DNA of 64,000 nt from positions 3,970,001-4,034,000 of the forward strand of contig NC_079875.1 in NCBI RefSeq assembly GCF_029227915.1, given 5' to 3'. The stretch comes from Hydractinia symbiolongicarpus. Lineage: Eukaryota > Cnidaria > Hydrozoa > Anthoathecata > Hydractiniidae. The notes below the pieces were generated by a model. The model saw only the letters and a list, made by a program, of their open reading frames with translations. It searched no databases and had not been told where the DNA came from. Both the position numbers and the translations under genes were made by a program. This document shows positions 11,401 to 38,856 of the stretch, one piece after another; position 1 is the stretch's first letter; every line of letters begins with the position of its first letter.

Positions 11401-14400
11401 AGATATTTATACGCCCAAAACTGTAGGGGGTACAGAATAATTCAGGCATCCATACCTGATTTTTTCTGTACCCCCTATGGCGTTGCCAGATATTTGCACG
11501 CCCATAACTGTAGGGGGATACAGAATAACCCAGGCATTAATACCTGATTTTTTCTGTACCCACTATGGCGTTGCCAGATATTCATACGCATAAAACTGTA
11601 GGGGGGTACAAAATAATTCAGGCATCCATACCTGATTTTTTCTGTACCCTCTATGACGTTGCCAGATATTGTACGCCCAGAACTGTAGGGGGGTACAGAA
11701 TAATTCAGGCATCCATACCTGATTTTTTCTGTACCCCCTATGCCGTTGCCAGATATTTGCACGCCCAGAACTGTAGGGGGTACAGAATAATTCAGGCATT
11801 CATACCTGATTTTTTCTGTACCCCCTTTGGCGTTGCCAGATATTGTACGCCTAGAACTGTAGGGGGGTACAGAATAATTCAGGCATCCATACCTGATTTT
11901 TTCTGTACCCCCAATGGCGTACCCAGATATTTGTACGCCCAGAACTGTAGGGGGGTACAGAATAATTCAGGCATCCATACCTGATTTTTTCTGTACCCCC
12001 TATGGCGTACCCAGATATTTGTACGCCCAGAACTGTAGGGTGGTACAAAATAATTCAGGCATCCATACCTGATTTTTTCTGTACCCCCTATGGCGTTGCC
12101 AGATATTTGCACGCCCAGAATTGTAGGGGGTACAGAATAATTCAGGCATACATACCTGATTTTTTCTGTACCCCCTATGGCGTTGCCAGATATTTGCTCG
12201 CCCAGAACTGTACGGGGGTACAGAATAATTCAGGCATTCATACCTGATTTTTTCTGTACCCCCTTTGGCGTTGCCAGATATTGTACGCCTAGAACTGTAG
12301 GGGGGTACAGAATAATTCAGGCATCCATACCTGATTTTTTTGTACCCCCCATGGCGTACCCAGATATTGGTACTTCCAGAACTGTAAGGGGGTACAGAAT
12401 AATTCAGGCATCCATACCTGATTTTTTCTGTACCCCCTATGGCGTTGCCAGATATTTGCACGCCCAGAACTGTAGGGGGTACAGAATAATTCAGGCATAC
12501 AAACCTGATTTTTTCTGTACCCCCTATGGCGTTGCCAGTTATTTGCACGCCCAGAACTGTAGGGGGGTACAGAATAATTCAGGCATTCATACCTGATTTT
12601 TTCTGTACCCCCTGTGGCGTTGCAAGATATTGTACGCCTAGAACTGTAAGGGGGTACAGAATAATTCAGGCATCCATACCTGATTTTTTCTGTACCCCCC
12701 ATGGCGTACCCAGATATTTGTACGCCCAGAACTGTAGGGGGGTACAGAATGATTCAGGCATCCATACCTGTTTTTTTCTGTACCCCCTATGGCGTTGCTT
12801 GATATTTGCACGCCCAGAACTGTAGGGGGGTACAGAATAATCCAGGCATTAATACCTGATATTTTCTGTACCCACTATGGCGTTGCCAGATATTTATACG
12901 CCCAAAACTGTAGGGGGTACAGAATAATTCAGGCATCCATACCTGATTTTTTCTGTACCCCCTATGGCGTTGCCAGATATTTGCACGCCCAGAACTGTAG
13001 GGGGGTACAGAATAATCCAGGCATTAATACCTGATTTTTTCTGTACCCACTATGGCGTTCCCAGATATTCATACGCCCAAAACTGTAGGGGGGTACAGAA
13101 TAATTCAGGCATCCATACCTGATTTTTTCTGTACCCCCTATGGCGTTGCCAGATATTTGCACGCCCAGAACTGTAGGGGGGTACGGAATAATCCAGGCAT
13201 TAATACCTGATTTTTTCTGTACCCACTATGGCGTTGCCAGATATTCATACGCCCAAAACTGTAGGGGGGTACAGAATAATTCAGGCATCTATACCTGATT
13301 TTTTCTGTACCCTCTATGACGTTGCCAGATATTGTACGCCCAGAACTGTAGGGGGGTGCAGAATAATTCAGGCATCCATACCTGATTTTTTCTGTACGCC
13401 CTATGCCGTTGCCAGATATTTGCACGCCCAGAACTGTAGGGGGTACAGAATAATTTAGGCATTCATACCTGATTTTTTCTGTACCCCCTTTGGCGTTGCC
13501 AGATATTGTACGCCTAGAACTGTAGGGGGGTACAGAATAATTCAGGCAACCATACCTGATTTTTTCTGTACCGCCCATGGCGTACCCAGATATTTGTACG
13601 CCCAGAACTGTAGGGGGGTACAGAATAATTCAGGCATCCATACCTGATTTTTTCTGTACCCCCTATGGCGTACCCAGATATTTGTACGCCCAGAACTGTA
13701 AGGGGGTACAGAATAATTCAGGCATCCATACCTGATTTTTTCTGTACCCCCTATGGTGTTGCCAGATATTTGCACGCCCAGAACTGTAGGGGTTACAGAA
13801 ATATTCAGGCATACATACCTGATTTTTTCTGTACCCTCTATGGCGTTGCCAGATATTTGCACGCCCAGAACTGTAGGGGGGTACAGAATAATTCAGGCAT
13901 TCATACCTGATTTTTTCTGTACCCCCTTTGGCGTTGCCAGATATTGTACGCCTAGAACTGTAGGGGGGTACAGAATAATTCAGGCATCCATACCTGATTT
14001 TTTCTGTACCCCCATGGCGTACCCAGACATTGGTACGCCCAGAACTGTAGGGGGGGTACAGAATAATTCAGGCATCCATACATGATTTTTTCTGTACCCC
14101 CTATGGCGTTGCCAGATATTTGCACGCCCAGAACTGTAGGGGGTACAGAATAATTCAGGCATACATACCTGATTTTTTCTGTACCCCCTATGGCGTTGCT
14201 AGTTATTTGCACGCCCAGAACTGTAGGGGGGTACAGAATAATTCAGGCATTAATACCTGATTTTTTCTGTACCCCCTATGGCGTTGCCAGATATTGTACG
14301 CCTAGAACTGCAGGGGGGTACAGAATAATTCAAGCATTAATACCTGATTTTTTCTGTACCCCCTATGGCGTTGCCAGATAATTGCGCGCCCAGAACTGTA

Positions 14401-15040
14401 AGGGGAAACAGAATAATTCAGGCAACCATACCTGATTTTTTCTGTACCCCCTATGGCGTTGCCAGATATTTGCACGCCCAGAACTGTAGGGGGTACAGAA
14501 TAATTCAGGCATTCATACCTGATTTTTTCTGTACCCCCTATGGCGTTGCCAGATATTGTACGGCTAGAACTGTAGGGGGGTACAGAATAATTCGGGCATT
14601 AATGCCTGACTTTTTCTGTACACCCTATGGCGTTGCCAGATATTTATACGCCCAGAACTGTAGGGGGGTACAAAATAATTCAGGCATCCATACCTGATTT
14701 TTTCTGTACCCCCTATGGCGTTGCCAGATATTTGCACGCGCAGAACTGTATGGTGGTACAGAATAATTCGAGCATTCATATCTGATTTTTTCGGTACCAC
14801 CTATAGCGTTGCCAGATATTGTACGCCTAGAACTATAAGGGGGTACAGAATAATTCAGTCACCAATACCTGATTTTTTCTGTACCCCCTATGGCGTTGCC
14901 AGTTATTTGCACGCCCAGAACTGTAGGGTGGTACAGAATAATTCGGGCATTCATATCTGATTTTTTCGGTACCACCTATAGCGTTGCCAGATATTGTACG
15001 CCTAGAACTACAAGGGGGTACAGAATAATTCAGGCATCTA
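1..15040. repeat. ~87-bp satellite array with hairpin monomers
   Basis: The whole stretch is a head-to-tail tandem repeat with a unit of 86-88 bp, roughly 170 copies, reaching the left edge of the window. Each monomer has a 50-bp dyad: a 21-nt arm starting GGGGGTACAGAA, an 8-nt loop (mostly CATCCATA) and a 21-nt return arm ending TTCTGTACCCCC, with two mismatches between the arms. A 37-nt spacer follows that holds a second, weak 5-bp inverted repeat (GGCGT and ACGCC). Monomer subtypes differ in the spacer (GTTGCC versus GTACCC; TTTGCACGCCC versus TTGTACGCCTA). The last ~350 bp are the most divergent, as is usual at a satellite edge, and the array stops near CCTAATTAGG. Long open frames on both strands are period artefacts, not genes. 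Confidence 0.98.
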
Positions 15041-15922
15041 TACCTAATTAGGTCGCGATAGAATAATGTTTTGTTTTTCGCCCCCCTGCAAACCAGACGC
15101 GCTTCGCAACTTCGATCGATTTTGATACGCTGGTGTTTTCTATTTTCTGAAAATAATACGCATGCACATTAACGACTTGCCTTCCAGAACATGCTAACGA
15201 GGTTATAGCTCCCAATCCCCTCTTTTCACCAAATGTGAACGACTAAGGCGAAGTGCACAGTCTATAAGTAGGCTAGAGTGTGCTGTGATATTTGATAGTC
15301 GTTTTTTTCATGGTGATCAACATAATACTTCTGGTCGCATTTCCAACCTCGTTTCTAGAGCTTCTTCTTCTTCTTTTTGACTCACTGGGGACGGTTCAGG
15401 TTCCGTCCCGATGTTAAGACCTAACAAGGGGGGACGATTATGGCCGCGTTTTTTATCTATATCCAGCCGTCATTCTTAAAATTACTCTTGATTTGATCCA
15501 TTTTATCGTACGTACGTTCATAAAATAATGTTCACCCTAAATGCAAAACAGTATTTATGTATCATGAATGCTTTATATGCATTGCATAATGAATTTTATA
15601 TTATATGGCGCACGATCTTGACGCAGCGAATTGCGTACGTATGACCATTAGATTTCTCCCGCAGCGCAGATGTTAAAGACGCTGTCTTCTTCTTGTTCTT
15701 ATTTATTCTTTTTGTGCGGAAAATATAAAAACACACATTTGATATGGCTATTCAAACGTTTGAAGTTAAGTGATTGTATCTTACAATAAAATATGAAGAA
15801 AAGGAACACCATTAGATCAACAGGAAAGTCTGACACATACACATATTCCACTGTATTTTAAAGAACATTTTCGTCATAGAACAGTCATAAAATACAATCT
15901 CTATAAAAAAAACTTGATAATG
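15041..15922. other. No gene seen; satellite flank
   Basis: Unique-looking sequence between the satellite edge and the last exon of the Ginger-type gene. It contains a short CTTCTT tract near 15361 but no exon I can support. If the Ginger-type element is complete, its left terminus should lie here. Confidence 0.5.
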
Positions 15923-16246
15923 CTAAAAATTCTTGTTTTTCCTTAAATCCACCCCGTTTTGTTTAAATATATCTAGGTTTTCTTTTGAGATGAAGACGTT
16001 CATCGGATTTAATATATTCTGTGCTTCAAATCCTCTGCCCAAACACTTTTGATCTATGTGGTAGTGCACATTTGTTTTCTTGCGTTTCCCGTGTGGTGCC
16101 TATTCTCCTCTTAATAATCTCAATTCTGTTGTCATGACACACACATCTGTGCCTGTGAAATCTCCGCCACACCCGGCACATTTCCTCATGTAATTGTTTT
16201 TCCTTTTTATAACGAAGCAGCCCTCATCAACTTCATTTACGTTCTT
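15923..16246 (-). pseudogene. Ginger-type gene last exon: Cys/His domain with in-frame TAG
   Basis: Phase 0 exon, 108 codons to a TAG at 15925-15923. It encodes MRKCAGCGGDFTG, later NVHYHIDQKCLGRGF and then a basic tail, a CxxC...HxH...C pattern that may bind zinc. Codon 49 is TAG (16102-16100), splitting the domain. Coding resumes in the same frame, so this is a single nonsense change, not decay throughout. It joins exon 22 in phase, which is the main reason for placing it in this gene. Confidence 0.65.
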
Positions 16247-17142
16247 CTAAAGGTGTATTTATTGGGTCAAACAAGGTTATACACACATTAATTTTAACAA
16301 AAAAGCTTTGTTTCTTTGCATAAAATGTTGTATAAAATCTTGAAAAATATTTTTTTTAAATTATACGTTGTCCACTTTATACACATGGGTTCATTATAGA
16401 TTTCATAGAGCTAGACACATACCTTGACTGTACCGGTGTCTTGGTTATTCTAAAAATAATTTGTATATATAATAATAATACAGTATCATTTTTCTTCAAA
16501 GCCCCTGAAAAATGCATGTCTTAGATGTTACCACATCAATACATTAATTTAACGTTAATTAATAAAAAGTCGTTAGTCCATTGAAACTAAACTGGGATTC
16601 ACTCGTAGTTCACGTCAGCAAATTTTTTAAATCTCTATATTTTCTTAACCTTTATTGGTCTTTCACGTTTTCTTAAGTGTTTTAAGCTTTAAGTAATCAA
16701 ATCCCTTAATATCAAATTTTACTGTCAAAGTGGATCTTCTAACGATTAGAATATCTTAATCAGTAGTATTCCAAATAAAAGGAAAAAAGCTGCCCTAACC
16801 CTTAAGTAAGAGTTTTGATGATTACGATTTTTTAGATAATTGTATGTACTTTATGAGAATGGTTTCCTTTGTTAGGAGAATTCAACGACGACCTTCATAT
16901 TGACCACAACACAAATTAAAGAAGCATTTAAATTGACGTGCTCTAATTTCGTAACATTTTTTTATTTGATTGTTACCTTGCTGTAAGTAACTGATATTCA
17001 TCCATCAAAACTTGTTTTATTTGTAGCTCAAGTTCTCGTACAAGGAGATTATAATACGTTCATTGTAAGGTTCCCTTTAACTTTGATTTGACACGCAAGA
17101 ACAAAGCAGGCAGATGCATATCTATTTTTAGATAAACCTTAC

Positions 17143-17910
17143 AAAAAGACGTACATTAATATCTTCGTCTTTTATGACAAGTACCTCCACTTTTTCATTT
17201 TTTTGTACAGTCCACAACTTCTCATTAAATTCCGGAGGAGCGACTTGCAGCATATCACAATTAAATGGGAAATTACTGTACGATTTTCTTAACGACTTGT
17301 GTAAACACTGCTGATGATACCACCTGGCTGGTAAGCAAGTATCGCAGCAAACCTATTAAATCAAACGACACGTTCAAACATAATTTTCGTTAGCAAAGGT
17401 AAAAAGATATTTATCAGGTATTACTGCAGTTTATATTTTTATTGGTTATTAGTCGTTTTTGCCCGTCCTTTATATATCGCATTTGGTGTTTCCGTAACAG
17501 ACAGACAAACGATTAATATAGAGATTAGGCCTTATTCCGTGAAATATTCATGGGAGCTCACCTGTCGCAGAGAAGTCAGTAAAAATATATATTATTTGTT
17601 ATTTGTAGCATGAATATTTTGCGTGTTGTTCAACATGGCCTGGTTTTGACAATAAACAGACAAAATACGGCTACTATACAGAAAACTAGTCCGGCGAACC
17701 CGTGGAAACATCCACGGGTTTGCTTATGCTTTATTTACTGCCTTTTGTGTTTCCGTAAAAATACTTTTTTCGTATGCAGACAGACCAAATAAGAGTATTA
17801 ATAATATAGAAATATATCTCATACCCACGCATCAGTTGGTTTTCCTTGTACTTTAGGACCCTCTGCCTTTCCACATACTCGACATACGCTATTGCACCAT
17901 CGTTCTTGAC
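17143..17910 (-). CDS. Ginger-type gene exons 21-22: PHD-like zinc finger
   Basis: Exon 21 (17910-17825) carries WCNSVCRVCGKAEGP and ends DAW; exon 22 (17352-17143) continues VCCDTCLPARWYHQQCL. Together they give CxxC, then W-V-x-C-D-x-C, then WYHxxC, the first six ligands of a PHD finger. The expected final CxxC is reduced to a single Cys in FPFNCDM, so it may be degenerate or divergent. PHD fingers usually read histone tails. Exon 22 ends at a strong donor (TTT then GTAAGG); read through, it would stop four codons later. Confidence 0.75.
17447..17527. repeat. Dispersed hairpin/CAGA repeat family, short copy
   Basis: Begins near TTAGTCGT, contains GCCCGTCCTTTATAT and GTGTTTCCGTAACAGACAGAC, and ends in AATATAGAGAT. 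It shares these blocks with copies near 17.7, 20.4, 26.3, 27.0, 27.5 and 49.6 kb. It lies upstream (plus coordinates) of exon 22, in an intron. Confidence 0.6.
17684..17812. repeat. Dispersed hairpin/CAGA repeat family copy
   Basis: Starts ACTAGTCCGGCG. It holds the hairpin AACCCGTGGAAACATCCACGGG and GTGTTTCCGTAAA, has a degenerate CAGACAGAC tract, and ends TAATAATATAGAAAT. Intronic in the Ginger-type gene. Confidence 0.6.
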
Positions 17911-17980
17911 CTAAATATATTAAAGTCGTCAATTGCACCATCAAAAACAATTTGTAAGGTTAAAAAGAAATTCATCGTAC

Positions 17981-19476
17981 CTCCCTCTTCAAGCAATTTT
18001 TTAACAATTTCCTCTCTGTAGGTTGTAACGCTTGATGTTGTTAAAGTTATTGGCACCTCTTGTTTTTCCAAAATAAGGCACTCTGCAAACTAAAACAAGC
18101 TATTGTTGTTACAAGTCTATTTGGACAAAGGGCTATTTTTATAAAGTGGTTTTTGAGTGATGCTTACTTTCAAACAGTATACACCACAGGAAATGCTATC
18201 TTTCTGTCGTGCATGTGGCACAATTTCCACGTTAAAGTTATCTTCTATTTGATATTTCGCCGCAAGATAAGAACTAAGAAAGTACAGAATATAAAATCGT
18301 AAAGCGGTTTTTTAACTTAAAAATATATTCTTTTTAATTCATCATTAAATTCTACTTACTTCCATTGCTGTTCAACCATTACAATTTCTTCAGGTAATTC
18401 ACCGAGTGGGTTAAAGTAAATTATGGTTGAAGCAGATGGAATAACAACCTGAAAGTAAGTCCCAGCTGTTAGAAGTATTTTGAAAGACAAGATACATGGT
18501 ATTAATAAAACGCTAATAAACAAGTAAAGGTTTTGGTACCGAAAGCGTCCAGTGGTATCCTGAACAACGACAACCAATAATTTGATCGTATTTTGTTATA
18601 TCACGCTGAAATAAAGTACTGCATTTAGAAACATGATACAAACTATTTACACCACCAGTAACATGTTTTTCAAGGCGGAGAAGGGCTGGCACGAAATGGG
18701 GTCTAACATGGTTGAGCGCTAATTTTACGTAAATAGCAGTATATTTTCAGTATTACTTTCTTTTTTTAATAAAATTCAAATGTCGAAATCATAACATGTG
18801 CGATCATACTTTTTTAGTAAACTTATTTACTAAAAAAGTAGAGTAAAAGAAAATTGTTAACGCGATATTTTTTCCCATTCACAATTTGAATGATAATGAT
18901 TTGACTTGTTAGTGATTTTATTCTTATTCTTTTTGATCACTTAAATTTGAAGTCCGTAAAGATGCACTTACTTGGAACACCTTTTATTTTGTATAGTTAT
19001 TTGTAGACATGCACGTGCTTTGAATAATAAAATTTTTTTATTCAGAAACTCTTATTTGGGAGATAGACTAAGATCGTAAGTTAAAGAGCTAAACTTTATG
19101 TGAGAGAGGTGTATAATGGATCTTAGCCCTAAATTTGCCTGAACGGTAAAAACCACTCACCTGTTTCATTTTTGACGCTGGTTCATCAAAAATCAGAGAC
19201 ATCTCGCCTGGAGTAATAATCTTTACACTCTGTGAAGAAAATATTTTTATCAATTTGTTTTAAGACACTTGAAAAGTTTAGAAAATAGAATTCAAATCGT
19301 TACCTTATGTTTACTTTGCCGGGAAAGAATACACAAATAGGTGTATATGACTTCGTCATTTACAGAGCTATGCAGAGCTTCCTTTAGTAAAACATCTGTT
19401 ACCGGAGTACTTCCAAATTCAGGAAACAGGCTGAGAACAATTTTCTTTGTTTCCACTGATTTCAACGCAACCATTT
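17981..19476 (-). CDS. Ginger-type gene exons 15-20: Ulp1/C48-type cysteine protease
   Basis: Exons 19476-19304, 19229-19161, 18605-18540, 18448-18360, 18273-18168, 18080-17981 join in phase. The series reads SVNDEVIYTYLCIL (compare the family's WLxDExIxxYL), YDQIIGCRC-SGYHWTLS with the catalytic His-Trp, IIYFNPLGELP at the usual Asp position, and ARQKDSISCGVYCLK, which holds the Gln of the oxyanion hole and the nucleophilic Cys. So His, Gln and Cys are present, but the acidic residue is Asn. In the family, C48 enzymes cleave SUMO-like modifiers. Whether this one is active is unknown. No stops or frameshifts are seen. Confidence 0.85.
18650..18722. repeat. 72-bp intronic repeat, copy 1
   Basis: Nearly the same as 21176-21247: CACCACCAGTAACAT, then CAAGGCGGAGAAGGG and GGGGTCTAACATGGTTGAG. 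Both copies are in introns of the same gene, 2.5 kb apart and in the same orientation. Confidence 0.75.
18807..18840. repeat. Perfect 14-bp hairpin
   Basis: Arm TACTTTTTTAGTAA, a 6-nt loop and the exact reverse complement. Intronic and AT-rich. It could be a tiny MITE relic. Confidence 0.8.
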
Positions 19477-20040
19477 CTACATAAAAATACTTAATATCTC
19501 ATAACATGTGGATTGTGTAATATTTAACTATCTATTGTAGCAGCACACCTTTACAACATTTTAATATCGCAATAGCTTAAATGATAAGTTTCATTCTTTT
19601 AAAGGAAAAAGTACACTCTTGCTGTTGTAACACTTGTTCTAGTAGAATCTAATTATCACAGAAGACAAATTTTTGGTAGTTTTTATCAAATTTTTAAATC
19701 CAAATTCGCTTTATTAATTCATATAATAAATTTCCCAGATATTCCCTCTTTCAGGATCTGCGGCAAATTCTTCCAAACCAAAATTTGAATTTATATACGG
19801 AAATGCTAGAAGTTTTTTCCATATCGCTTCGAAATAGACATCTTGGACTTCTGAATACACCAGTAGACAAAAATTGAAGTTTTTTTTACAGGGAAAACAA
19901 ATCTTCTCCGTAAAAAGACAAATGAATAATAAGTAAACGTTTTAAAGTTGTATTTTTTTATTTTATAAGAATTTTTAATTAATTATTTTTTAATCAATCA
20001 TGTACAGTACATGAAAAGATTACAAATGATACACACTTAC

Positions 20041-23000
20041 GTTCATGAACCGTTGCTGCACAAAAACACACCCCATTTGTGTTCGAATACATTTCCATTT
20101 CATCTAAAAAAAAGAGATATAGAGATCATCTAAAGTCAGGTGGTGATTTTTTCCAGTGCAGGATAAATCTTGCGAATCCAATCAGGCAAAAAATATGCGT
20201 CAGGCTTTAGTCACATGTTAAAAGTTCTACATAAAGGAAAATTGGAAAAAGCTATCACGAAACTTTATTAAATCAGCTTTACTTTTTATAATAAAATGTG
20301 ATTTCATTGCACAGTTGCAATTCTATTTTAATTAGCAAATCTATGTAATAATAGCCTTATTTCGTCTGTCTGTCTATGCGCCTCCGCCTATGCAGACCCC
20401 CCGCTGAGTTAGAAACTAATGTTGCGGTAACACGAATATCAAATGCGGTATATTTTTATCCACTTTGTTGCCACGGCTGAATATAAAGGACGAGCGACCC
20501 CGTGGATTTTTCCACGGATTAACGACTAGTCTCTTTAGTAATAGCCGTCTTCTTTTTGTGTGTCCGCAAAAGACGCGTTCTGTTATGGAAACATGAAATT
20601 TTTATAATACCAACGAATGCAAAATGCGATATATGTTTGTCTATTTTGTTGCAACGAGTAAATTTAAAGGACGGGCGAACCTGTGGACGACAAGTCTATA
20701 TTGTAATACCCGTATACGTCTGTCTGTCACGCAAAATAGTACCGCAAGTAGCAAGATGCAATATCTCTCCTAAATATTATAAACAGTAGACAAGCTCACA
20801 AATAAAAGGCCCATAAACTATCATTTCCCCCCTTAAACTGTCAGATTACATACCAATAATGTTCTGATATAAATAAAGGCTAAAAGCAACAGTGCGACAA
20901 ATGACACACACGCACACAAAAAGAATGACTTGAAATGTCTTTATTTTACTTTTCTTGAGCCAAAAAAGTCTAAGATGAAAGCGCAATATTGGATTAGGAA
21001 AAAAAAAATAATAAATAAAAAAAAAAAAACAATTTAATTATCTCAAAAGATATAAATAAAAAAATGTTAATGGAATAATACCGTTATCGATCTTTTTTGT
21101 CTGCTTCTCTTCAGCTTTGATATTTAGGCCAGTAGCTAATAGATTGAACAAAATGATAACAACAATACCAAATATACACCACCAGTAACATAGTTTTCAA
21201 GGCGGAGAAGGGTGGTACGAAATGGGGTCTAACATGGTTGAGCGCTAAAAACGGTTTGAGTTCAGAGCGACAATAATATCTTCAAATTGCTTCAGAATAC
21301 AGCAAAAGGTGGGGTCCTACTGGACACACCAGCGGGTACAATTATCGCTAAACTTCACATTTCTTTTATAGATAAAGAAATAGTAACTGAGGAGTACCGC
21401 TATAAGTACCATCAGCCTGTTCCTTGTTGTTAAATTCTGTTGTTGGTTCAGAAACTAAGATAAAAAATAAAACAATGATAAGTATAAGATTAACATATAT
21501 TCCGACTCTTTTGATAAGAAAGATTTTTGTACTAACCGCATCTTATAATATCTTCATCAGATATTTCATCTGTGACATCAGCTATTAAACGCCCTTCTAG
21601 CAATGAAAAGTCGAGTAATAGAGGTTACTTCTTTGAACAAGTAATGAAAAATAAATTTAAAGTAATTCTTTACCTTTTTCTATAATATTTTTAACTGGAT
21701 ATTCGCAAGCATAGTCATGGTCGAGAATGGTAGCTAAATAAATCATATGGAAATGAATGCATTTTGTCTTTCCAAATTTATGTAGTTTTGTTCTTAAACG
21801 ACCATATAAAATAGTTAGGTTAATAACCCTCTCGCAAAACGTAGCTATGACTTCTTACATCGATTTTTGGTAATATTACATCATGTTTAGCAATATGGTT
21901 GTTCAAAATGGAATCAACACGTGGAAATGTCAATATAACTGATTTTATTTAAGGACTAGTGCAGTGTAAAACATGTGGGTAGGCGACCGCCGGCGGGCTG
22001 TACACGAAATTCTAAATGTATGCATTTATCATTATGCGAGACTTTTCAAGTGCAAAATATGCAAACCTCTGAATTTCGCAAAAGTTTTTTCCGCAAAACT
22101 GCGTAAGTATTGTCTACGTGAGAAGTTTCAACTTTCGCGGGTTACAAATTTTCGCGAATAAAGCCCGATTTTACATTTCGCGGGTTCGACAAAAATGTTT
22201 TTTTCTTTACTAGCCTTTAGTATTTCATCCGAAAAAGGCCATGATGACACTGCTTATTTTTGCTTTTGGAAATTGGTATACTTCCACCATTCGCGAAAGT
22301 TTTCGCACTAAAATTCTCCATTAACACGAAATCGCGAAAGTTTGTTCATCGCCAAATTAGGTCTAAATCGTGTATTTGCGAAAGTAAAATTTTTTTCGAT
22401 ATTTCCATCGGACTAAGCGTACGCGTGAGTTGATGGAGATAATGCTTCTTTTTACGGAGCTAATTAACTCCGTCATTCTTCGCCACTCATTTCAAAAATG
22501 GTAGGCGTTTGCAGCGAGTCGAGATTTCAGTTCCTTCACCGCTGGTGGGACCGCCTTTAGGCGGTCGATAAATAAAAAATTGCAGTTTATGATTGCAAAA
22601 AAAATAATAGGCAAACATTTGATTAGTACTGTTTTATTACCATCAATCTGTTGCAAACCGCAATCTTTAATGCTTGGCTTAGAAGCCGAGATAGAAAAGA
22701 AAACAATGATTAACGTAACTGTAATTCGATGTGTTAATTTTTCTTTAAATTTTCCAAAAAATGTATGTCTTAAATGCAATCGGCAAATTGAAAATCACGA
22801 CTTCGATAACATCATTTTAACATAAACAGTTTAATATAAATTAACGAAGCATTATAACTTTAATGCTAAATAACTTGGAAACGGGGGAAAATAACTGACT
22901 TTATCTCCTGCGTTGGTAACTGAGGACCATTTCAAGGCAAAAGAAGGATCAATTTTTCAAAAATAGGACAACCCATAAGTTTATAACTCTACAGAGACGG

Positions 23001-23189
23001 TTAAAAATGAAAAAAAAATGTGCATAGACGGGTCAATGCTACCGTTAATAAAATTTAAATGACAGGGCTTTTGGATTGTTCTGCCAAAGTGTAACACGGG
23101 CTTATCGACCAATGAATAAATAGTACCGTTATCAATACCACCTTCATCTATCAGCATTTCTTTAATAGACATGGTGGTTGGTTCAGAAA
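20041..23189 (-). CDS. Ginger-type gene exons 9-14: phase 1-1 mini-exons, acidic linker
   Basis: Six exons of 54-63 nt, every one phase 1 at both ends: 23189-23127, 21733-21674, 21596-21537, 21454-21398, 21135-21082, 20103-20041. Exons 9 and 12 both begin with the same acceptor context and VSEPTT, suggesting exon duplication. The peptides are short, charged and low in known motifs (for example TDEISDEDIIRC, YACEYPVKNIIEK, AEEKQTKKIDN). The last includes NGVCFCAATVHE. They join integrase to protease. Because all are 1-1, any can be skipped or duplicated without a frameshift. Exon 13 is the least certain. Confidence 0.62.
20345..20745. repeat. Two tandem copies of the hairpin/CAGA repeat family
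   Basis: Contains CGTCTGTCTGTCT, GTAACACGAATATC, AAAGGACGAGCGACC, the hairpin CCCCGTGGATTTTTCCACGG and GACTAGT. A second unit follows with AAGGACGGGCGAACC, CCCGTATACGTCTGTCTGTC. Intronic. Confidence 0.6.
21176..21247. repeat. 72-bp intronic repeat, copy 2
   Basis: Second copy of the block at 18650-18722, with a few substitutions (GGGTGGTACG versus GGGCTGGCACG). Confidence 0.75.
22020..22400. repeat. Region of repeated TTCGCG motifs, probable MITE
   Basis: TTCGCG or its complement CGCGAA recurs many times (for example CTTTCGCGGG, TTTTCGCGAATA, ATTTCGCGGGTT, CATTCGCGAAAG, AAATCGCGAAAG) in otherwise AT-rich DNA inside the largest linker intron. I did not find clean termini. Confidence 0.5.
22456..22571. 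repeat. Two short palindromes in an intron
   Basis: ACGGAGCTAATTAACTCCGT is a 6-bp-stem inverted repeat, and GACCGCCTTTAGGCGGTC is a near-perfect palindrome about 90 bp further on. Function unknown. Confidence 0.6.
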
Positions 23190-23504
23190 CTAAGATAGAG
23201 AGGAAACAATAGAATAACTATCACCAAACATGTTATAGTAAAACATCTAATAACTGAGTCGTACTATTATCATATTTATCATATTTTGAATGACTACAAG
23301 ATCAAAGAAAATTATTTTTCAGTGTAGGTTCTCTGAAAGGGGTTTATCTTTTGTGTAGCGAAATAGTAATTTCAGGAAAAGAAAAATTCAACTGTGTAAT
23401 TAGTAAGGTGGTGTTGGCCTCATTCTCCCACTCCCACCCGTTCACTTGTCCTCATATCTGTCAATTGTATTTTTTAGGAATATTGTATGTGTAGTGAAAC
23501 CTAC

Positions 23505-23748
23505 CTTCAACGAATTTTTTTAAATTTTTCGCATGATGGCTGTTTTTGCTTTCTCTAAATTTTACATTGCCATGGGGTGTCACTGACTGCACGATGAAGG
23601 GACCTTTAAATCTGGCTTTAAGGCCCCTTTTTTTCGATTGATCCGCCAATAGAACTTTGTCTCCTTCTTTGAAATCTCTTTTTATGTCCGTTACTCTGAC
23701 GCGCTTATCGTAGGCCTTCTTTTGCTTTTCTTGCGCATGTTCTATGTT
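23505..23748 (-). CDS. Ginger-type gene exon 8: GPY/F-type module
   Basis: An 81-codon exon with KKAYDKRV, then FKEGDKVLLADQ and LKARFKGPFIVQSVTPHGN. The KGPF core is the GPY/F motif found after the catalytic core in Gypsy and Ginger1 integrases, with the preceding GDKVLL also typical. It starts in phase 0, ends in phase 1 (GAAG then GTAGGT), and is intact. Confidence 0.9.
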
Positions 23749-24288
23749 CTAAATATGGAATATTAAATAATACAGTAGCATACTCAAACTCGCAAGAGAT
23801 CGACTTTTTGGTTTTAACTAGTAGATGTTACCTAGGTTTAAGGAACAAAATCAACAAAAATTTTTAATTTTTACGAATGTGACATAAACTCTTGGATAAC
23901 TAACTTTACAAGGAAAATCTTGATGATGGGGAAGGCCTTGAAATTCCCACCCTGCAAACTCGATTCTATTAAAAATTATATCGTTGATAACACAAAATGA
24001 CGTAATTCTACGTCAACGAATATATTTGGGCTTGAGGAGCAAAAGATTAGAGAGAAATGACTAAATTATTCGAAGTTCAAGCTAAGCAGCAAAAATATCT
24101 GCCTTTCTTATTCTAAATTTATAAAAATCATTACCATCAGCATTCAAATTAGCAGATGTATACTATAGTCTTTAAATACTATGATGACGTTAAATTTAAA
24201 AAAATAAAAGACCAAGTAAAAAAAAGGAGAACGTAAGCCTATTAACGAATTTTTTGTTATCATTACCCTAAAAATACAGAATACTTGC

Positions 24289-24391
24289 CTCTTTTACGAT
24301 TTTAGTAGCTTTTTCTATATTTTTAGCCGCTAAATTCATTCATGGCATCTACAACTGCTTCATTGGAAGGCATTCCATCCAAAACTCTACT
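24289..24391 (-). pseudogene. Ginger-type gene exon 7 with +1 frameshift and GC donor
   Basis: Starting in phase 0 the exon reads SRVLDGMPSNEAVVDAMNE, then hits TAA three codons later. Shifting by one base gives LAAKNIEKATKIVKE, which runs into exon 8 in phase. The exon is 103 nt where 102 are needed, so one extra T in the GAATTTAGCG stretch is the simplest explanation. The downstream donor is GAG then GCAAGT, an otherwise ideal GC-type donor. The T-run makes an assembly indel possible. Confidence 0.75.
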
Positions 24392-24582
24392 CTAGTATAT
24401 TTAAAAGTATCACGCAATTAAACTTATTACGAGGACATAACGAATTTCCATAGCCTCAAATGGGAGGACAGTTTATATTTCTTGAAGTACCTTATGAAAA
24501 CGCTTCCTTTATCTTCTTCACTTATCTTAAATTTCAGCCTATCGCTCCTGTACGGGTGGTGCATATAAAAAGATATTCTTAC

Positions 24583-24745
24583 CTCATTAAAATTTTCTTC
24601 AAATTTTGGTGGTCGGCCACCAAACATGATTTCGAATGGCAAAACCTTCGTAGAGGTTTGCCGTTCTGTCCTCATGGAGAAGAGGCAGACGTCGAGATAG
24701 TCATCCCAGTCTGCCACTGTCTCACTGACCATTTTTTTTAATTTC
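24583..24745 (-). CDS. Ginger-type gene exon 6: integrase C-terminal core
   Basis: Continues the integrase fold with VADWDDYLDVCLFSMR and the motif TSTKVLPFEIMFGGRPP, the standard end of Gypsy-type cores (consensus xTGxSPFxLxYGRxPxLP). It starts in phase 2 and ends in phase 0 (GAG then GTAAGA). Confidence 0.92.
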
Positions 24746-24814
24746 CTAAATAGATAAACACATACAAGTATGGTTACTGCAATTAAATGCAATGGGAAAA
24801 AACAAAGAGTGTAC

Positions 24815-24921
24815 CTTTTCAACGTTTTGTTGGTGTTTTCATCCTGCCCGTTCGATTGGGGATGGTATACCGCTGTTTTTCTCCTTTCAATACCCATTTT
24901 ATTATATATCTCGTCGTTCAA
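24815..24921 (-). CDS. Ginger-type gene exon 5: integrase core, catalytic Glu
   Basis: A 107-nt exon with AVYHPQSNGQDENTNKTLKR. The Gypsy consensus here is YHPQxNGQxER; the Glu of QDE is the third acidic residue of the DDE triad, so the triad is complete. Acceptor TTGTTTAG, donor AAAAG then GTACAC, phase 2. Confidence 0.92.
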
Positions 24922-25017
24922 CTAAACAAACAATAAACGTAAGAATCATGGTAACCCCAAGAAAATGTTGTGTACAAGACTAATTTCATTTTTAAATCTT
25001 GAATATTTTATTTGTAC

Positions 25018-25251
25018 CTTGTTGTTGAATTCACTCCCGTTGTCTGTTAAAATCGCCTTTGGAATTCCAAACGTTGTGAGTACTTTCAACATACTAATTG
25101 CCACAGTTTCGGCATGCTTGTTGGGCAATGCATACGCAAGAGGCCATTTGGAAAATAAGTCTGTACATGTTAAAATGTACTTATTCCCCCTGTTGGTTTC
25201 TTGCAATGGCCCAACAAAGTCAATGCCAATTAACTCCCACACCTTGCTCGT
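25018..25251 (-). CDS. Ginger-type gene exon 4: integrase core, first and second Asp
   Basis: A 78-codon exon holding the start of the rve (retroviral integrase) core. WELIGIDFVGPL supplies the first catalytic Asp and ILTDNGSEFNNK the second; between them are YILTCTDLFSKW and KHAETVAI, typical of Gypsy-type integrases. It is phase 0 at both ends. In retroviral-type integrases these acidic residues bind the metal ions used for DNA cleavage and strand transfer. Confidence 0.93.
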
Positions 25252-25430
25252 CTAAACCATTTCATAGATTATAAATTACATTAATACATAAAGCATAATG
25301 CGCATCAAGAAGCTTTTCTCGAGAAAGCCATCTTTTTACACGAGTGTACACCTCTAAACTCGAAAACGACTTATACATATCGTGTTCCAATCAGGCTTAC
25401 AAGCTTAAAATTATTATTAAGAAATCCAAC

Positions 25431-25502
25431 CTGAATAGGCGTCATTTCTTTTTTTAACGATGGCAACGCCCCATGCTTCTGACAAGTTGCGCATTGTTTA
25501 AT
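25431..25502 (-). CDS. Ginger-type gene exon 3: Cys pair of H2C2 finger
   Basis: A 72-nt phase 0 exon with IKQCATCQKHGALPS, giving the CxxC that completes the HHCC finger. The acceptor is a good pyrimidine tract ending TTCGCAG; the donor is CAG then GTTGGA. Confidence 0.88.
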
Positions 25503-25702
25503 CTGCGAAGGAAAATGACATACTATTTCGTTGAAAGTCTAATTTTCTAATTGGATAAATGTTACAAGGACTTTTTATTGAAAAGTTATAAATGTTAAAA
25601 TATGCTTTTACAAAATAGGATAATTTCATCCGTAATACTATATACACCATACGCCATCGAGAGAAAGAAAAAGAAAGCAATGAAACCTTGAAAATAACTT
25701 AC

Positions 25703-25929
25703 CCAAGATTTGATTTCGACAGACATCCCAGGCCAGTAAAATTTTTCTCTTATTTTGTCAATAGTCTTCGTTTCCCCTGAATGGCCACCTATAGAGCTAT
25801 TATGGTATTCTGTATAAATACTTTGCTTTTCTTCTGCAGATAACACAACTTTAGCGTAACATCTCTGCCCACAAATCGCAACACGTCTTACAAGCCTACC
25901 TGTTTGATACAAAAAATTAGTGTTTGTTT
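25703..25929 (-). CDS. Ginger-type gene exon 2: N-terminal integrase and His pair of H2C2 finger
   Basis: Encodes FLYQTGRLVRRVAICG followed by YHNSSIGGHSGETKTIDKIR and FYWPGM. This is the HHCC zinc-binding region of retroviral-type integrases; the two histidines are here and the cysteines are in exon 3. The donor is TTGG then GTAAGT, phase 0. The frame stays open upstream to a better acceptor at 25958, but only a start at 25929 keeps phase with exon 1, so either the acceptor is weak (CTCGAAG) or one short exon is missing. Confidence 0.8.
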
Positions 25930-26150
25930 CTTCGAGACTATATTTCTCGAATTTACGTCTGGAAATAAAATTTAAACCAGAAAATTTGATTTTAACATAG
26001 TCGATTCACGTCGAAGCATGGAGGGGTCAAATGGTGCTTAGGGCGTAAACTAGCTATGCTATTTATGGCACGAGTACTCACTATTTTCCACTTTTCCTTT
26101 GCAAAGTGTTAAAAAAACTTGGAATACTTAGTGTTAAATCCTAAAAAAGT

Positions 26151-26316
<166 letters not shown>

Positions 26317-26337
26317 TATACGGGCATTATAATATAG
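26317..26337. repeat. 3' end of hairpin/CAGA repeat family
   Basis: The block ATACGGGCATTATAATATAG is shared with 27037-27058 and nearly so with 49699-49719. Confidence 0.75.
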
Positions 26338-26504
26338 ATAACGCTCTTTAATGTAAGGGGCGATAATTCGAGAGAGGTCGTTAAATCGAGCATATAACGT
26401 ATGTGTTTTTACTTCGGTGAGTAAATCAGGCGTTATTGAAATATAATTCCAGATGCTGATTCTCTTCGGGGAGTTCATCCTAACGGCTAACTCTTCCTCC
26501 GACT

Positions 26505-26790
26505 TATCGGTAAAAGAAGTCGGCAAAAACATCAGTCGGCAAAATAAAAAGCGGTAAAAATATTAGTCACTTGGAAAACTTTTTGCCAACTAAATTTTTG
26601 AAATTTGTCACTTTTTGCCAACTAAATTTTTGAAAAAGAAAAGGAAAAACGGTAAAAAGGTGGTTGGAAAAAAAAAGTCGGAAAAAAGTAAGGTCGAAGA
26701 AAAAATGTCGGCAAAAAAGTCAGTCAGCAAAACATATTAGTCACCCAGCCAAAATTTAGTCACTTTTTGCCGACTTTTTTTTACGGATAA
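26505..26790. mobile_element. Foldback MITE with ~27-bp terminal inverted repeats
   Basis: Left end TTATCGGTAAAAGAAGTCGG at 26505 and the complement of TTATCCGTAAAAAAAAGTCG ending at 26790 agree over about 27 bp with three mismatches. The interior repeats GTCGGCAAAAA and CTTTTTGCC several times, also in opposite orientations. No coding capacity. Target duplication unclear. Confidence 0.75.
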
Positions 26791-26947
26791 GGTATATTAC
26801 CGCCAGAGATGCGTACAGTATTGCTCTAACTTGCTTGCCGCTGCACAAGCCAATTCGCAGTTGGGTAACAACACCCTATTTAAAGTATGTCTGAGTGGGG
26901 TTATGTGGAAAAAATTAAAATTTTTAAGGCAAATAAACATTTATAAA

Positions 26948-27060
26948 AAGACTAGTCGTTAGCCTGTGGAAGAATCCACGGGTTCGCCCGTCGCAGCTAA
27001 GCTACCATTTTGCGTGACGGACGGACGGACAGACGTATACGGGCATTATAATATAGATTA
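26948..27060. repeat. Hairpin/CAGA repeat family, clean copy
   Basis: The best short example: GACTAGTCGTTAGC, hairpin CCTGTGGAAGAATCCACGGG, GCTAAGCTACCATTTTGCGT, a short GGAC/AGAC run, then ATACGGGCATTATAATATAG. It suggests the order start, hairpin, GCTAAGCTACC block, AGAC tract, end. Confidence 0.75.
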
Positions 27061-27419
27061 AGGAATTATTTTAGCTAGATGGCGTAATGACAGGCTGTTG
27101 CCCTTTAATCACATTTTTTTTAAGATATCGCACCCTAATAGGTTGAAGTATTTGCTTCACATTGATGTCCGACAGGCTTTACCTGCACTAAACGCTCGTT
27201 CTGCTGTCACTCACAATCAATTTTGGACTTTTTCGGACAAAAATTCAAACAGACTTTATTTCTTATTTTGATTTTCAAACACACACCAAAACCAAATTAA
27301 AACGTACGGCTATGTTAGGCGCTCCACCTGAAGTTCGACACCATTTACCTGAACTTAAGCACTCAGCCTGAAGCTTGACGCTCAATTAGGGTGGCTTAAG
27401 CCCGCGTTTTGTGTTTAAA

Positions 27420-27556
27420 AAAAAGGTCGTGCTACGGAAACACAAAATGCGATATATGAAGGAAGGGTGAACCCGTGGAAGAATGCACGAATACCGATCC
27501 GACAAATATTCGCAAAGTGAGGATTGCCGTGGATTTTTCCACTGACGACTAGTATA
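27420..27556. repeat. Hairpin/CAGA repeat family, degenerate inverted copy
   Basis: Contains GGAAACACAAAATGCGATAT, AACCCGTGGAAGAATGCACG and GCCGTGGATTTTTCCACTGACGACTAGT. Intronic. Confidence 0.5.
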
Positions 27557-27855
27557 TTCAAACTTTGTTTTCAATGCAAATGAGTTCATTTATAGGTTTG
27601 ACCAGTTTTATTTAGGCGGTAGTCAGGCTAACAATATATTAGGAATACAGGAACGTTGAAGGCTGAAATAAGAATTATTCTTTAAAAAAACATGTATGTT
27701 TATGATTGGTCATAATAATTGGCATAATTGGCCGGAATATGTACAACGGGAACAACCATGAGTTTTTTCACTGGCTATTTACTTGTGTAATTCTTTTATA
27801 AAAAACGTGCATCTACAGACAAACTAAAACTAGTTTAAGTACAAAAGTTGCTTAC

Positions 27856-27985
27856 CTTCTAGGACGGAGTAACATTTTGATTTTAGGCGCAACAACCTCT
27901 TTTGTGTTTTAGTAAATTTTTCTGGATACGATCCTTTCTTTAAATAATTTGTCAAATACTCAATTTCGTTTTTAAAGGCATCCAT
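27856..27985 (-). CDS. Ginger-type gene exon 1: start codon and YP-motif N-terminus
   Basis: ATG at 27985-27983 opens a 43-codon frame that includes YLKKGSYPEKFTKTQ and ends at a good donor (GAAG, then GTAAGC) in phase 1. The pattern YP, a run of basic residues, then a Tyr shortly before the next exon's FLYQTG matches the N-terminal region of Gypsy/Ginger1 integrases (the YPYY-type motif). I chose this ATG because it precedes the motif by a family-typical distance. The intron to exon 2 is about 1.9 kb and contains the CAGA microsatellite and other repeats. Confidence 0.7.
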
Positions 27986-28711
27986 ACTTTAGCTTTGAAT
28001 AAACTTTCACCGTTTTCTTATAAATTGAAAAAGACCTTCTTCTCTTTTCAACAAAAATAGTGATACCGCATGATAGTGGTTACTCCTCAGCTGTCCGATG
28101 ACGCACAAGTGTTACAGATCAACACAGGTCATGGAAGGCGTAAAGATTTACGTTTACGTGTAAAACGTGTGAAGGCTATTCATTCAAAAGGTGTAAGTTG
28201 AATTCATGCTCTTTCGTATGCAACATTTTGAAATACAAAGTTCAAAAACAACTAAGTCCGGCCTGAAGCGGCAAAACTAAGACTAATAAAAGGCGAAAAG
28301 AGGAATTATTAACAAAGGGTCCCGCTAAAAATATCTAATTTCGAAAGTTTTATAAGTTCAATACAAAAAAGGCGATAAGAACTAAAGTTTGCGCAATTAC
28401 CAAATGGCAAAACACAATATTCTTAATTTTGATTAAATGTCAGCTTACATGTTCTTTTTGTAGTCGTATAGGTACAAACGTGTAGATGGTTAAACCTAAA
28501 GTTAATCTCGGTGAAGTATTTCACGGATTCCAGATTTTAGTGACTTACATTGTAGCCAGGGAAGAGTGAAGTGAATTGACGAAAAACTAGATGATGAGAT
28601 ACCTTGGTGTGGACATCTGGTCATATACTAAAAAACAAATATTTTATCACTCTTAAATTTAAATCAGCGCCAAAGTATATTTACGCTAATTTTATCCGAC
28701 ACGGCTCTAAA
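27986..28711. other. Upstream of the Ginger-type start; no gene seen
   Basis: About 700 bp ahead of the presumed ATG on the minus strand. Any promoter, 5' leader or right terminus of the element should be in or beyond this stretch. I could not identify a terminal repeat. Confidence 0.4.
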
Positions 28712-29322
28712 CAGGGGCGGATCCAGACTTTTTCAAGACTTAGTCAAAACTGAGTCTTGAATTTAGCAGCTGTGGGCTAAATTTTAAGCTTTGCGGGTAC
28801 AAAAATCGCCGAAAAATTGTCTTCCGATTTATCTAGTTATTAATAAAATTGACCAAAAGAAATGCTAAGCTATAACAAAATCTCCTAAGAACATTTTTTA
28901 TAAGAATCAACTCTCCGTCTTACACGTCTTATTTTAGATAGATAAAACCACTAAAATTAACAGGGATTAACTACAATAAAGTGAGACAATTGTGAATATA
29001 TTTCATTATTTATAAACTCCTGCTGTTTCTGCCAATATCAGGCTTCATCAGCATGACTAGGTGAATCAAATGATCACACCAGCCATGGACAGCAAAATAA
29101 AACACAATAATAACAAAAACAATAAGAATATGGAAAGATCAGGATAATGAAAATGAAATATACATACATGTGATATGATACAAACACACCTCAACCCATG
29201 TATTTGTTCAGATATATTTGTTTATTCATACGGCTAAACTCAAGTTTCGTTGGAACTTTAAAAGAAGAATTAAGAAGGGCTTTTTACTGCTTTTTGCATG
29301 CTGAAATAGGAAAATGCAACTT

Positions 29323-29718
29323 TCAGTTAAGAAAGTTGCAACCTGGAAAAAGGGGAACGTAATGATTTGGCTTGAAGTCTACACCAGACTTAACAATATC
29401 TTCATAACAAAATAAATTTTTTAACTGATCTTCATCAGGTAAAATAGATGGGTGTGGCGATATACACTGTGTAAAGAAAGTTGTAACAAACTGTAACAAA
29501 CCGAATTGTGGGTAAAATGTGTTAATTTTTCTCTTTATTACTGTTGACAAGGCAAGTGTTGATAGAAAAGGAAACCATGTCTTGGGGGTACAGTTGTTGA
29601 TTGCTTCTGCTTTAACTGCCTCCTCAGGAGAAAGAGTCACAAACAATATGGGAAAGGGAAAATCTGAATAAACTTTTCTCAGATATAAAAATATTTGCCT
29701 TTTGGTTTTTAAATGCAA
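29323..29718 (-). CDS. Unrecognised open frame
   Basis: 131 codons ending in a TAA at its 3' end. The product includes FPILFVTLSPEEAVKAEAI, a Pro/Phe-rich middle and VDFKPNHYVPLFPGCNFLN at the C-terminus, which looks more protein-like than a random frame. No family recognised. It sits inside the candidate hAT element and could be its last exon. Confidence 0.3.
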   Translation of the reverse strand: MHLKTKRQIFLYLRKVYSDFPFPILFVTLSPEEAVKAEAINNCTPKTWFPFLSTLALSTVIKRKINTFYPQFGLLQFVTTFFTQCISPHPSILPDEDQLKNLFCYEDIVKSGVDFKPNHYVPLFPGCNFLN

Positions 29719-30589
29719 ATTGAAAACAAGGATGATTGGAATAAAAGGAAGGATGCAAGAAAAGTTCTATGGATGTCAGGATTCTCAAAACATCAACAAG
29801 AGAATTATCACCTATACCTATATCAACGATGCTGAGCTGTATAGACAGTCTCCTGATGGATTAGATCTAAAAATAATATATTTTACCATGACCTTTTACT
29901 CAACAAACTTTGTTTCTTAATAGTCATTCGAAGAGTTGTTTTTTTTCATCACCAACCTTACTTATCCAGATGTCAAGTTCTTGCTTCTAATAACAACACA
30001 ATATTAATTGAGAAAGAATTCCTCCGCAATGCTGAAAATTCTGTTCAAAGCTCATATTACAAAAACAATACACCTTTATGATAATTCAATTGTACATGCG
30101 TTCCTACGGCTCTCCATCGTTTTACAATATCGGAAAAAAGGAGGTAAAACTCGTGTTTTTATGAGAGTTTGTTAAGAACGAAAGCGTGTTTTCTCCAGTT
30201 TTTTAACTTCTGTCGTATCAATTTCTTTCAAATTTTTAGGAAACGTTAATAATAATAAGATACAACTTATGTGTACTTTTCATTAAAAACAAAACGTGGC
30301 AAGAAAAGTTATCACGAAAAAACGTGTTTTTTCCTTAATAAACTCTTATAAAAGTGTAATGTTTACCTCCTCTGATTGCAAAATAAGCTGCAATGGAGTG
30401 TTATTTTTTCCGAATTATCGTAAAGGTGTATTAGCCCTAGCTATTAGCTAATTAAATCTTTTTGTATTTGGTTTTAATAGTCTGTTGTATAAAGCTCTCC
30501 CCAACTAGCTTTTCGTAGCAGATATACTGAAAACCTTTAAATAAATGCAAGGTGTGTTGGAGAGTAAAAAACATACTTCTCACCTTAAA

Positions 30590-30918
30590 GCAATAATTCC
30601 TTTATCTTCACACCTCGCCTCAGATGGAAGGTATATATCTGGACCTAAATTCCGATGAAGACTTTTACCAACCAAGGGATAAATATCCCCAGACAACAAA
30701 AATGCTCGAGAATAAACACTTTCTAAAAGTTCTTTTTGCATTTTACGAACAGATTCAAAATTATCACACTTTAAATCAGTAAGCACCCGCGCCAACATAT
30801 CTGATGCAGCCATAATCAATAATAGTACGGAAAGAATCCAAGCCAAAAGGCGTGAGTCTTCGACTAATCCTGACGGATGGGAGTTAAAACTATAGCTTAA
30901 CAGGTTATTAGTAACCAC
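30590..30918 (-). CDS. Unrecognised open frame, possible exon
   Basis: The frame includes a hydrophobic stretch (LLAWILSVLLLIMAASDMLA) followed by FESVRKMQKELLESVYSRAF and LVGKSLHRNLGPDIYLP. It ends at a plausible donor (CTTTAAG then GTGAGA). No family recognised. It could pair with the frame at 29323-29718 in the same direction. Confidence 0.3.
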
Positions 30919-30990
30919 GCAGTACGGAACCTAAATTTCCTTCGCCGGCTGCGGGCCACATATTGTTGGACTACGCATAGAGTGTGAAAA

Positions 30991-31170
30991 TTACGTCACG
31001 ATTTTGACGTCACAGGCCCCTTAGGTGAGATGGGGAGGGTTGCGGGCCATAGCTATTTGATTTTTGACTGACTGAGTGACTGATTAGTCAAGATGAATCA
31101 GTCAAAATCTGTAAGCTATAATTTGCAACCCTCTCAGTCTATATGGTAGCGACGTCACAACTTTGACGTC
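30991..31170. repeat. ~180-bp imperfect palindrome with CRE-like sites
   Basis: Left arm 30991-31073 and right arm 31099-31170 are inverted copies. GGAGGGTTGCGGGCCATAGC pairs with the complement of GCTATAATTTGCAACCCTCT, and TTTTTGACTGA with TCAGTCAAAA. The outer parts carry TGACGTCA-like cores in ACGTCACGATTTTGACGTCA and GACGTCACAACTTTGACGTC. A third, diverged copy of the arm follows to about 31225. Probably a foldback MITE. Confidence 0.7.
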
Positions 31171-31539
31171 AACATCGCTATAGGCGAATTGGAGAGGGCT
31201 GTGAACCATGACTTTTCGCCGTAAAAAAATTACAATTTTTAACGCCCTCCGTTTGCAACGCCTGGATCGTCGACATCTTCGCTTGGCTAACATTTTTCGT
31301 CAAATTTACACTTAGTCACGCGACTTATCTGACTAACCCTGGATCCGCACCTGCTAAATATTTTTAATGAGACAAAGTTTTTTGACACCATGACATGTCT
31401 CCGGTGTAACAAGGTGCACGTTGTTATAAGTTTTTGTGTGGGATAAAGTTCCGTTCGTTTAGAAAGCAGAATTTTTAAAACGAACTTTATTGTTTTCTTT
31501 AATTTATTTTTTTGGACAATAAATGAAAACATCCGTTTT

Positions 31540-33297: not shown

Positions 33298-33430
33298 TTG
33301 TTTTCGACAAAATTTGGCACAGTTAACAAAAAAAGTATGCTGAACATAATGGTGACATAATAATTTTGATTTTTGTCACCTAAATGTCATTTTAGGCCAA
33401 AATTGGTCCAAAAATTAGAACTACTTTATT
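33298..33430. repeat. Solo copy of the 129-bp minisatellite unit
   Basis: One unit (TTTTCGACAAAATTTGGCAC, AAAAAAAGTATGCTGAACAT, GTCATTTTAGGCCAAAATTG) that is tandemly repeated at 42199-42800. It is followed by a GC-rich palindromic GTGCGCGCCAGCGCAC. Confidence 0.9.
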
Positions 33431-38580: not shown

Positions 38581-38589
38581 TTAATTTAC

Positions 38590-38826: not shown

Positions 38827-38856
38827 TTGAGTTAACAAAATTATAGCATTAGCTTT

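Follow-up and report, generated by a model that had tools for sequence, protein, structure and literature searches.

Analysis of a 64,000-nucleotide stretch of the genome of the hydrozoan Hydractinia symbiolongicarpus (C1:3970001-4034000; the window) points with good confidence to a giant DNA transposon of a Ginger1-like lineage that carries a 23-exon integrase gene. The element around this gene spans 72.7 kb, from C1:3952842 (17 kb to the left of the window) to window position 55548, and is bounded by 42-bp terminal inverted repeats (TIRs) of the form TGT...ACA, identical at 39 of 42 positions, with a 4-bp target-site duplication, CACT. Mobile units in this lineage reach 146 kb and hold a satellite of end-like motifs within the transposon, and the integrase-type transposase gene keeps 20 of 23 exons in a diverged relative; a Ginger-like DNA transposon, it appears, can far exceed its described relatives in size, introns and satellite load. 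Ginger elements are unmentioned in the main texts of two Hydractinia genome papers (text search).

Ends, target duplications and copies of the element

Genome searches were run over the 480.9-Mb, 76-contig assembly. Counting copies of the exons, as proposed in a preliminary description made from the sequence alone, gave near-identical gene copies at four further loci (the four near-identical matches to exon 8 elsewhere in the assembly). The five gene-bearing copies lie on four chromosomes (the window copy on C1, and copies C10, C5, C2a, and C2b); they are collinear, and the others are 95.4-99.8% identical to the window in alignments longer than 1 kb. The alignable block takes in the satellite and reaches about window 55.5 kb in C10 and 54.5 kb in C5, where an N gap follows; it is interrupted by two insertions that the window copy alone carries. 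On the right, the window and C10 diverge after ...TTTATCACA, the inverted counterpart of which lies at C1:3952842; the termini, TGTAA and TGTGA, have the form TGTNR. The main parts of the element, apart from the gene, are as follows (window coordinates unless marked C1).

C1:3952842-3952883: left TIR, outside the window
1..15049, plus strand: right portion of the element's internal 87-bp satellite array, which in full occupies C1:3953191-3985049 (31.9 kb)
28712..31353: nested 2,642-bp insertion, in the window copy only of five
33117..43083: nested 9,967-bp insertion, in the window copy only of five
53378..53832, minus strand: broken KDZ transposase relic inside the element
55507..55548, minus strand: right TIR, 42 bp
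55549..55552: right copy of the 4-bp target-site duplication CACT

The array (31.9 kb) and the private insertions (12.6 kb) leave a remainder of about 28 kb, a division of size between array and nested insertion that holds for the window copy only. The preliminary description missed that the element exceeds 50 kb and includes the neighboring 87-bp satellite; it proposed looking for terminal repeats around 15.0-15.9 and 28-31 kb, where the only pair nearby is one of 31 nt at 71% identity (16248/30048; minimum 25 nt). An inverted repeat of the expected kind does exist, at C1:3952842 and window 55507-55548, flanked by CACT instead of the expected CCGG or CCGT.

A genome search with the TIR pattern gave 16 matches, and the reversed control pattern gave none. 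Five inverted left-right pairs are present among them, with spans of 72,707, 94,822, 145,654, 52,150, and 4,595 bp, and perfect 4-bp duplications accompany all five (CACT, ACGG, AATA, TACT, and TGAG). The gene is present in four of the pairs (52-146 kb) and absent from the 4.6-kb pair; the latter is read as a deletion derivative, because some 750 bp of its left end run into sequence corresponding to window 51711 onward. The C5 gene copy has an N gap at its right end and so stands outside the five pairs scored for duplications. Two facing right-type ends (C1:19871988 and 19894414) lie 22.4 kb apart, perhaps as part of a large palindrome; no duplication is called for this pair, since both ends are right-type and their 16-bp flanks are identical. 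The other four matches have no partner among the 16.

The integrase gene, its predicted product and its relatives

The gene lies on the minus strand and has 23 exons joined at 22 junctions; it encodes an H2C2-DDE-GPF integrase, a C48 (Ulp1) protease domain, a PHD-like finger, and a Cys/His exon. Of 25 candidate exons modeled, 23 were kept, so the exon and junction counts first proposed stand. The start of exon 2 was set at 25899, which removes a phase mismatch between exons 1 and 2 and agrees with a Hydra protein described below. All features in the following list are on the minus strand.

27986..28190: sequence flanking the gene on its 5' side, conserved in the C13 relative
27856..27985: exon 1 (holds the start codon and a possible YPYY region)
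25703..25899: exon 2 (H2C2 zinc finger)
25431..25502: exon 3 (H2C2, CxxC)
25018..25251: exon 4 (rve core, two catalytic Asp)
24815..24921: exon 5 (catalytic Glu; D-35-E spacing)
24583..24745: exon 6
24289..24391: exon 7 (GC donor; frameshifting indel in the window copy only, 1 of 5)
23505..23748: exon 8 (GPF motif)
23127..23189: exon 9 (belongs to a set of three related exon-like stretches; no usable match in the C13 relative)
22641..22685: decayed exon-like repeat, no AG acceptor, not an exon
21674..21733: exon 10
21537..21596: exon 11
21410..21454: exon 12 (no in-order match in the C13 relative)
20041..20103: exon 13
19779..19850: open stretch rejected as an exon
19304..19476: exon 14 (start of C48 region)
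19161..19229: exon 15
18540..18605: exon 16 (C48 His)
18360..18448: exon 17 (Asn at catalytic Asp position)
18168..18273: exon 18 (C48 Cys)
17981..18089: exon 19
17825..17910: exon 20 (PHD-like finger, first half)
17155..17352: exon 21 (PHD-like finger, second half)
16423..16449: exon 22 (27 nt; no in-order match in the C13 relative)
15923..16246: exon 23 (Cys/His C-terminus; in-frame stop 16102-16100 in the window copy only, 1 of 5)

Two candidates were dropped. The stretch at 22685-22641 lacks an AG acceptor in all five copies; that at 19850-19779 was rejected for its weak donor, for a stop that interrupts the frame in three other copies (the fourth has the same substitution), and for want of an in-order counterpart in a diverged relative on C13. 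Related exon-like stretches at window 21443, 22674, and 23178, one with a lost acceptor, have the appearance of an exon triplication inside the gene.

One of the five copies reads through all 23 exons, giving 927 aa with GT/GC-AG splice sites. The window copy had been credited with a single 1-nt lesion; a short frameshifting indel is indeed present in exon 7, and a second lesion, the exon 23 stop, had been overlooked. Both are absent from the other four copies. Exon 14 is interrupted by a stop in C5 and exon 6 by one in C2b, which has also lost two donors; C2a has lost its exon-7 donor (read by eye).

Pfam matches on the joined minus-strand exons agree with the original reading of integrase, C48 protease, and PHD-like finger on one strand: Integrase_H2C2 (2.9e-19), rve (4.1e-13), and Peptidase_C48 (8.2e-13), with the PHD finger at 2.6e-4 and 21.4 bits, under the cut-off of 24. 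The best solved relative of the integrase part is PFV integrase (7.2e-24), and the D-35-E spacing was read from the sequence. The GPF of the exon 8 translation aligns opposite the GPY of the Hydra protein, and a YP...Y stretch in exon 1 also aligns with that protein, a comparison made without the published YPYY alignment. The C48 part matches SENP1 (3.4e-5), with Asn in place of an Asp that we take to be the catalytic one; the Hydra protein has the same Asn, and protease activity is for this reason uncertain. Structure prediction for exon 23 gave a mean predicted local distance difference test score (pLDDT) of 50.7 (three sequences in the input).

The Hydra protein (Hydra vulgaris LOC124807812) matches the window protein with E 4.1e-178. 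It shares the integrase (58% identity over this region), the C48 domain, and a weak C-terminal PHD match (0.01), and differs in having an N-terminal extension and, in its 835-aa model, no Cys/His exon. In a tree of 45 integrases, the window, C13, and Hydra proteins form a clade with support of 100/99; the wider order is weak, and the bootstrap had yet to converge.

The C13 relative retains 20 of 23 exons in order, with almost all boundaries. For this comparison 24 candidate exons were tried, and exons 9, 12, and 22 and the rejected candidate, which had no usable match, were left out beforehand. Splice sites are found where predicted for 18 of 19 AG (the other is 3 nt off) and 19 of 19 GT, which argues that the exon model is not a product of chance. 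Over 860 codons, nonsynonymous divergence (dN) is 0.142 and synonymous divergence (dS) 1.19, a dN/dS of 0.12. Directly past the last exon of the C13 gene lies at least 5 kb of tandem array whose period is 87/174 bp. It is homologous to the window unit, the consensus scoring 73 where none of 200 shuffles scored above 19; the C13 sequence read was 20 kb, ending before the element ends. Since both occur in the C13 relative, gene structure and array are most simply taken to predate the window/C13 split. Exon 1 and the 5' flank (window 27827-28190) are identical to the C13 relative at 324 of 365 positions (89%) despite near-saturated synonymous sites; either a conserved control region or later exchange could account for this.

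A wider lineage is suggested by a genome search with exon 4, in which 150 of 970 candidates were scored and 146 matched. Among those scored, 17 matches had E <= 1e-18 and lay in exon-sized open frames of 63-101 aa, five with internal stops; the next matches were at about 1e-7, many in long frames as in retroelements. The short frames at the 17 matches suggest introns, exons having been checked for the window family and the C13 relative only.

The 23-exon gene is the sole transposase gene found in the element besides a broken KDZ (Kyakuja-Dileera-Zisupton) relic, and we infer that it encodes the transposase of the element, splicing of its exons giving a protein of 927 aa. Its integrase domain would recognize CTGTACCCC motifs in the ends and insert the element elsewhere through joins staggered by 4 bp; introns would survive transposition, since it is DNA that moves. 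The Ulp1-like domain may act on SUMO-type modification, the PHD-like finger may act on or read chromatin, and the array of end-like motifs in both orientations may bind or titrate the transposase. Bao et al. (Discussion, PMC2836005) call the enzymatic mechanism of Ginger1 excision unknown; the present lineage offers recent copies, defined ends, and one unbroken gene copy in a laboratory animal.

Classification and alternative explanations

Ginger1 elements are defined by an H2C2 zinc finger and DDE core, a YPYY motif, GPY/F, a C-terminal OTU or Ulp1 domain, TGTNR termini, TIRs of about 40-270 bp, and 4-bp target-site duplications, and those tabulated are 2.6-7 kb long with 0-4 introns and proteins of about 500-800 aa; duplications in Hydra are CCGG (75%) or CCGT/ACGG (24%) (Bao et al. 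2010; PMC2836005). The element shares with them the H2C2, DDE, GPY/F, Ulp1, and PHD features, TGTNR ends, a 4-bp duplication, and a TIR of about 40 bp. It differs in size (52-146 kb in four copies), in intron number (22), in protein length (927 aa), in its long internal satellite of end-like motifs, and in duplications not confined to CCGG/CCGT, ACGG being the one of five that fits. The earlier assignment to Ginger1 therefore holds for protein architecture, TGTNR ends, and duplication length, whereas duplication sequence, size, and intron number fall outside the published definition. Because the duplication sequence fails in four of five pairs, and because neither size nor intron number comes near the values in Table 1 of that paper, we file the element as a giant, intron-rich, Ginger1-like variant and not as a plain Ginger1 member. 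It had also been called unusually elaborate, which intron number bears out; the PHD finger is not a novelty, as Ulp1 and PHD are on record together in Ginger1-9_HM of Hydra (Bao et al. 2010 Table 1, PMC2836005).

Pfam scans covered six frames of 43084-55548 and the three minus frames of 27990-33116; the plus frames of 15050-33116 and the non-exon minus frames of 15050-27990 lay outside them. These scans found no reverse transcriptase (RT), RNase H, or Gag, no Polinton DNA polymerase, capsid, or other Polinton gene, and no viral gene, and the ends are inverted repeats, not long terminal repeats. The statement that RT and Gag are lacking is thus upheld for the scanned parts, which do not comprise every frame and in which the element shows no Gypsy-type RT or Gag of its own. 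Cargo genes were considered and rejected, Pfam giving just the KDZ relic and a PHD match within a LINE-like frame in the same parts. Polinton/Maverick elements likewise combine a Gypsy-like integrase with a cysteine protease; they have a 6-bp duplication and encode a protein-primed DNA polymerase B and a capsid, whereas here the duplication is 4 bp, C48 lies within the integrase protein, and the scans gave no Polinton gene. Teratorn and other giant eukaryotic transposons resemble the element in their great size and in having transposon ends; the published description of Teratorn is of a 180-kb composite with a piggyBac-like element, in contrast to the absence of viral genes from the scanned parts here (PMC10175614, PMC6431247).

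The best of the alternatives, itself improbable, is that a Ginger1 of ordinary size inserted into a larger element of another kind, for example a KDZ transposon, and was later mobilized together with it. The published Ginger1 size (PMC2836005) and the KDZ relic (E 7.5e-7, with an in-frame stop, inside a stretch common to the window, C10, and C5) would fit such a history, as would the inverted pairs at 15050-34000, of which there are 11, the best being one of 54 nt at 83% and one of 38 nt at 89%. These pairs, however, judged by position and motif, are intronic or share motifs with other dispersed repeats there; the outer ends are themselves Ginger-like, and KDZ was rejected as mobilizer on account of the stop.

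Segmental duplications containing a Ginger1-derived host gene, spread by recombination between satellite arrays, would explain blocks that are long, satellite-rich, and collinear in an assembly with 15.7% tandem repeats (PMC11067881). TIRs at both ends, independent perfect 4-bp duplications of differing sequence in all five pairs, and a 4.6-kb derivative with its own duplication make this explanation very improbable. A domesticated host gene, which many introns and the dN/dS of 0.12 might suggest, is barely credible, as constraint is also expected of a transposase lineage and the gene is multicopy within TIR-bounded elements, its copies broken in different ways; the earlier idea of a host gene evolving from Ginger1 finds no support at this locus, given near-identical copies at four other places, three of which, like the window copy, are bounded by inverted repeats with target duplications.

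Several points nevertheless weigh against a giant Ginger1-like transposon. The case is built on DNA sequence, and the ends of C2a and C2b were paired by orientation and duplication. In C10, about 6.5 kb separate the left TIR from the main array; a left boundary at the array edge was rejected because the TIR sits that much further out, and within the gap 0.6 kb beside the TIR matches the window left end and 2.7 kb matches no other copy. The array may have grown in place after insertion. Full read-through with GT/GC-AG sites in just one of five gene copies, a published Ginger1 sequence in only one of five duplications, and the Asn in the C48 triad count on the same side.

The 87-bp satellite and nested sequences

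The array unit has a period of 87 (TRF consensus 88 letters), and CCTGATTTTTTCTGTACCCCC is common to unit and TIR. Across the 31,859-bp array, the end-like 21-nt motif occurs 353 times forward and 359 times in reverse at <=4 substitutions, 348 and 247 times at <=2, and 225 and 0 times exactly, so the reverse arm is a diverged version. Dyad symmetry of the whole unit is modest (22 of 40 positions, a level that 8 of 500 shuffles reached). Genome-wide, a 35-mer taken from the unit has at least 1,253 + 186 occurrences (<=1 mismatch), those inside and outside elements taken together.

Our preferred reading of the array, held tentatively, is a binding platform or titration sink for the transposase; passive growth of end-like repeats is the simplest alternative. 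It is likewise possible, and rather doubtful, that the satellite is an organ of giant Ginger-like elements, kept downstream of the transposase gene across subfamilies, its motif changing together with the ends and the transposase; this is weakened by the modest whole-unit symmetry and by the prospect that an array on C8 is a chance finding. The C8 sequence (C8:2824000-2826499, 2.5 kb picked blind downstream of a 79%-identical, three-copy subfamily) consists entirely of a 187-bp tandem array whose C-rich doublets are spaced by 18 bp, as they are in the window-family TIR, a match noticed afterwards; with tandem repeats at 15.7% of the genome the array may be there by chance, and no exon within the stretch links it to the gene. 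The significance of Hydractinia tandem repeats, 15.7% of the H. symbiolongicarpus assembly, has been called unclear (PMC11067881). A satellite-carrying element is one testable source of them, and, were the satellite such an organ, transposons could be one origin of the tandem repeats, so far unexplained, of which much of the Hydractinia genome consists.

The 2,642-bp insertion has the ends CAGGGGCGGATCCAG / CTGGATCCGCACCTG and an apparent CTAAA duplication, and the 9,967-bp insertion contains an identical 600-bp internal repeat and 30/60-bp tandem arrays. A retroelement-type integrase match in a 1454-aa frame (C2:11370000-11370212, inside the C2a span) is taken as nested, because equal-scoring matches exist elsewhere. 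LINE-like frames with a zinc-finger stretch occur at window 57238-58296 (minus) and 50915-51627 (plus), with the Pfam PHD match at about 50.93 kb.

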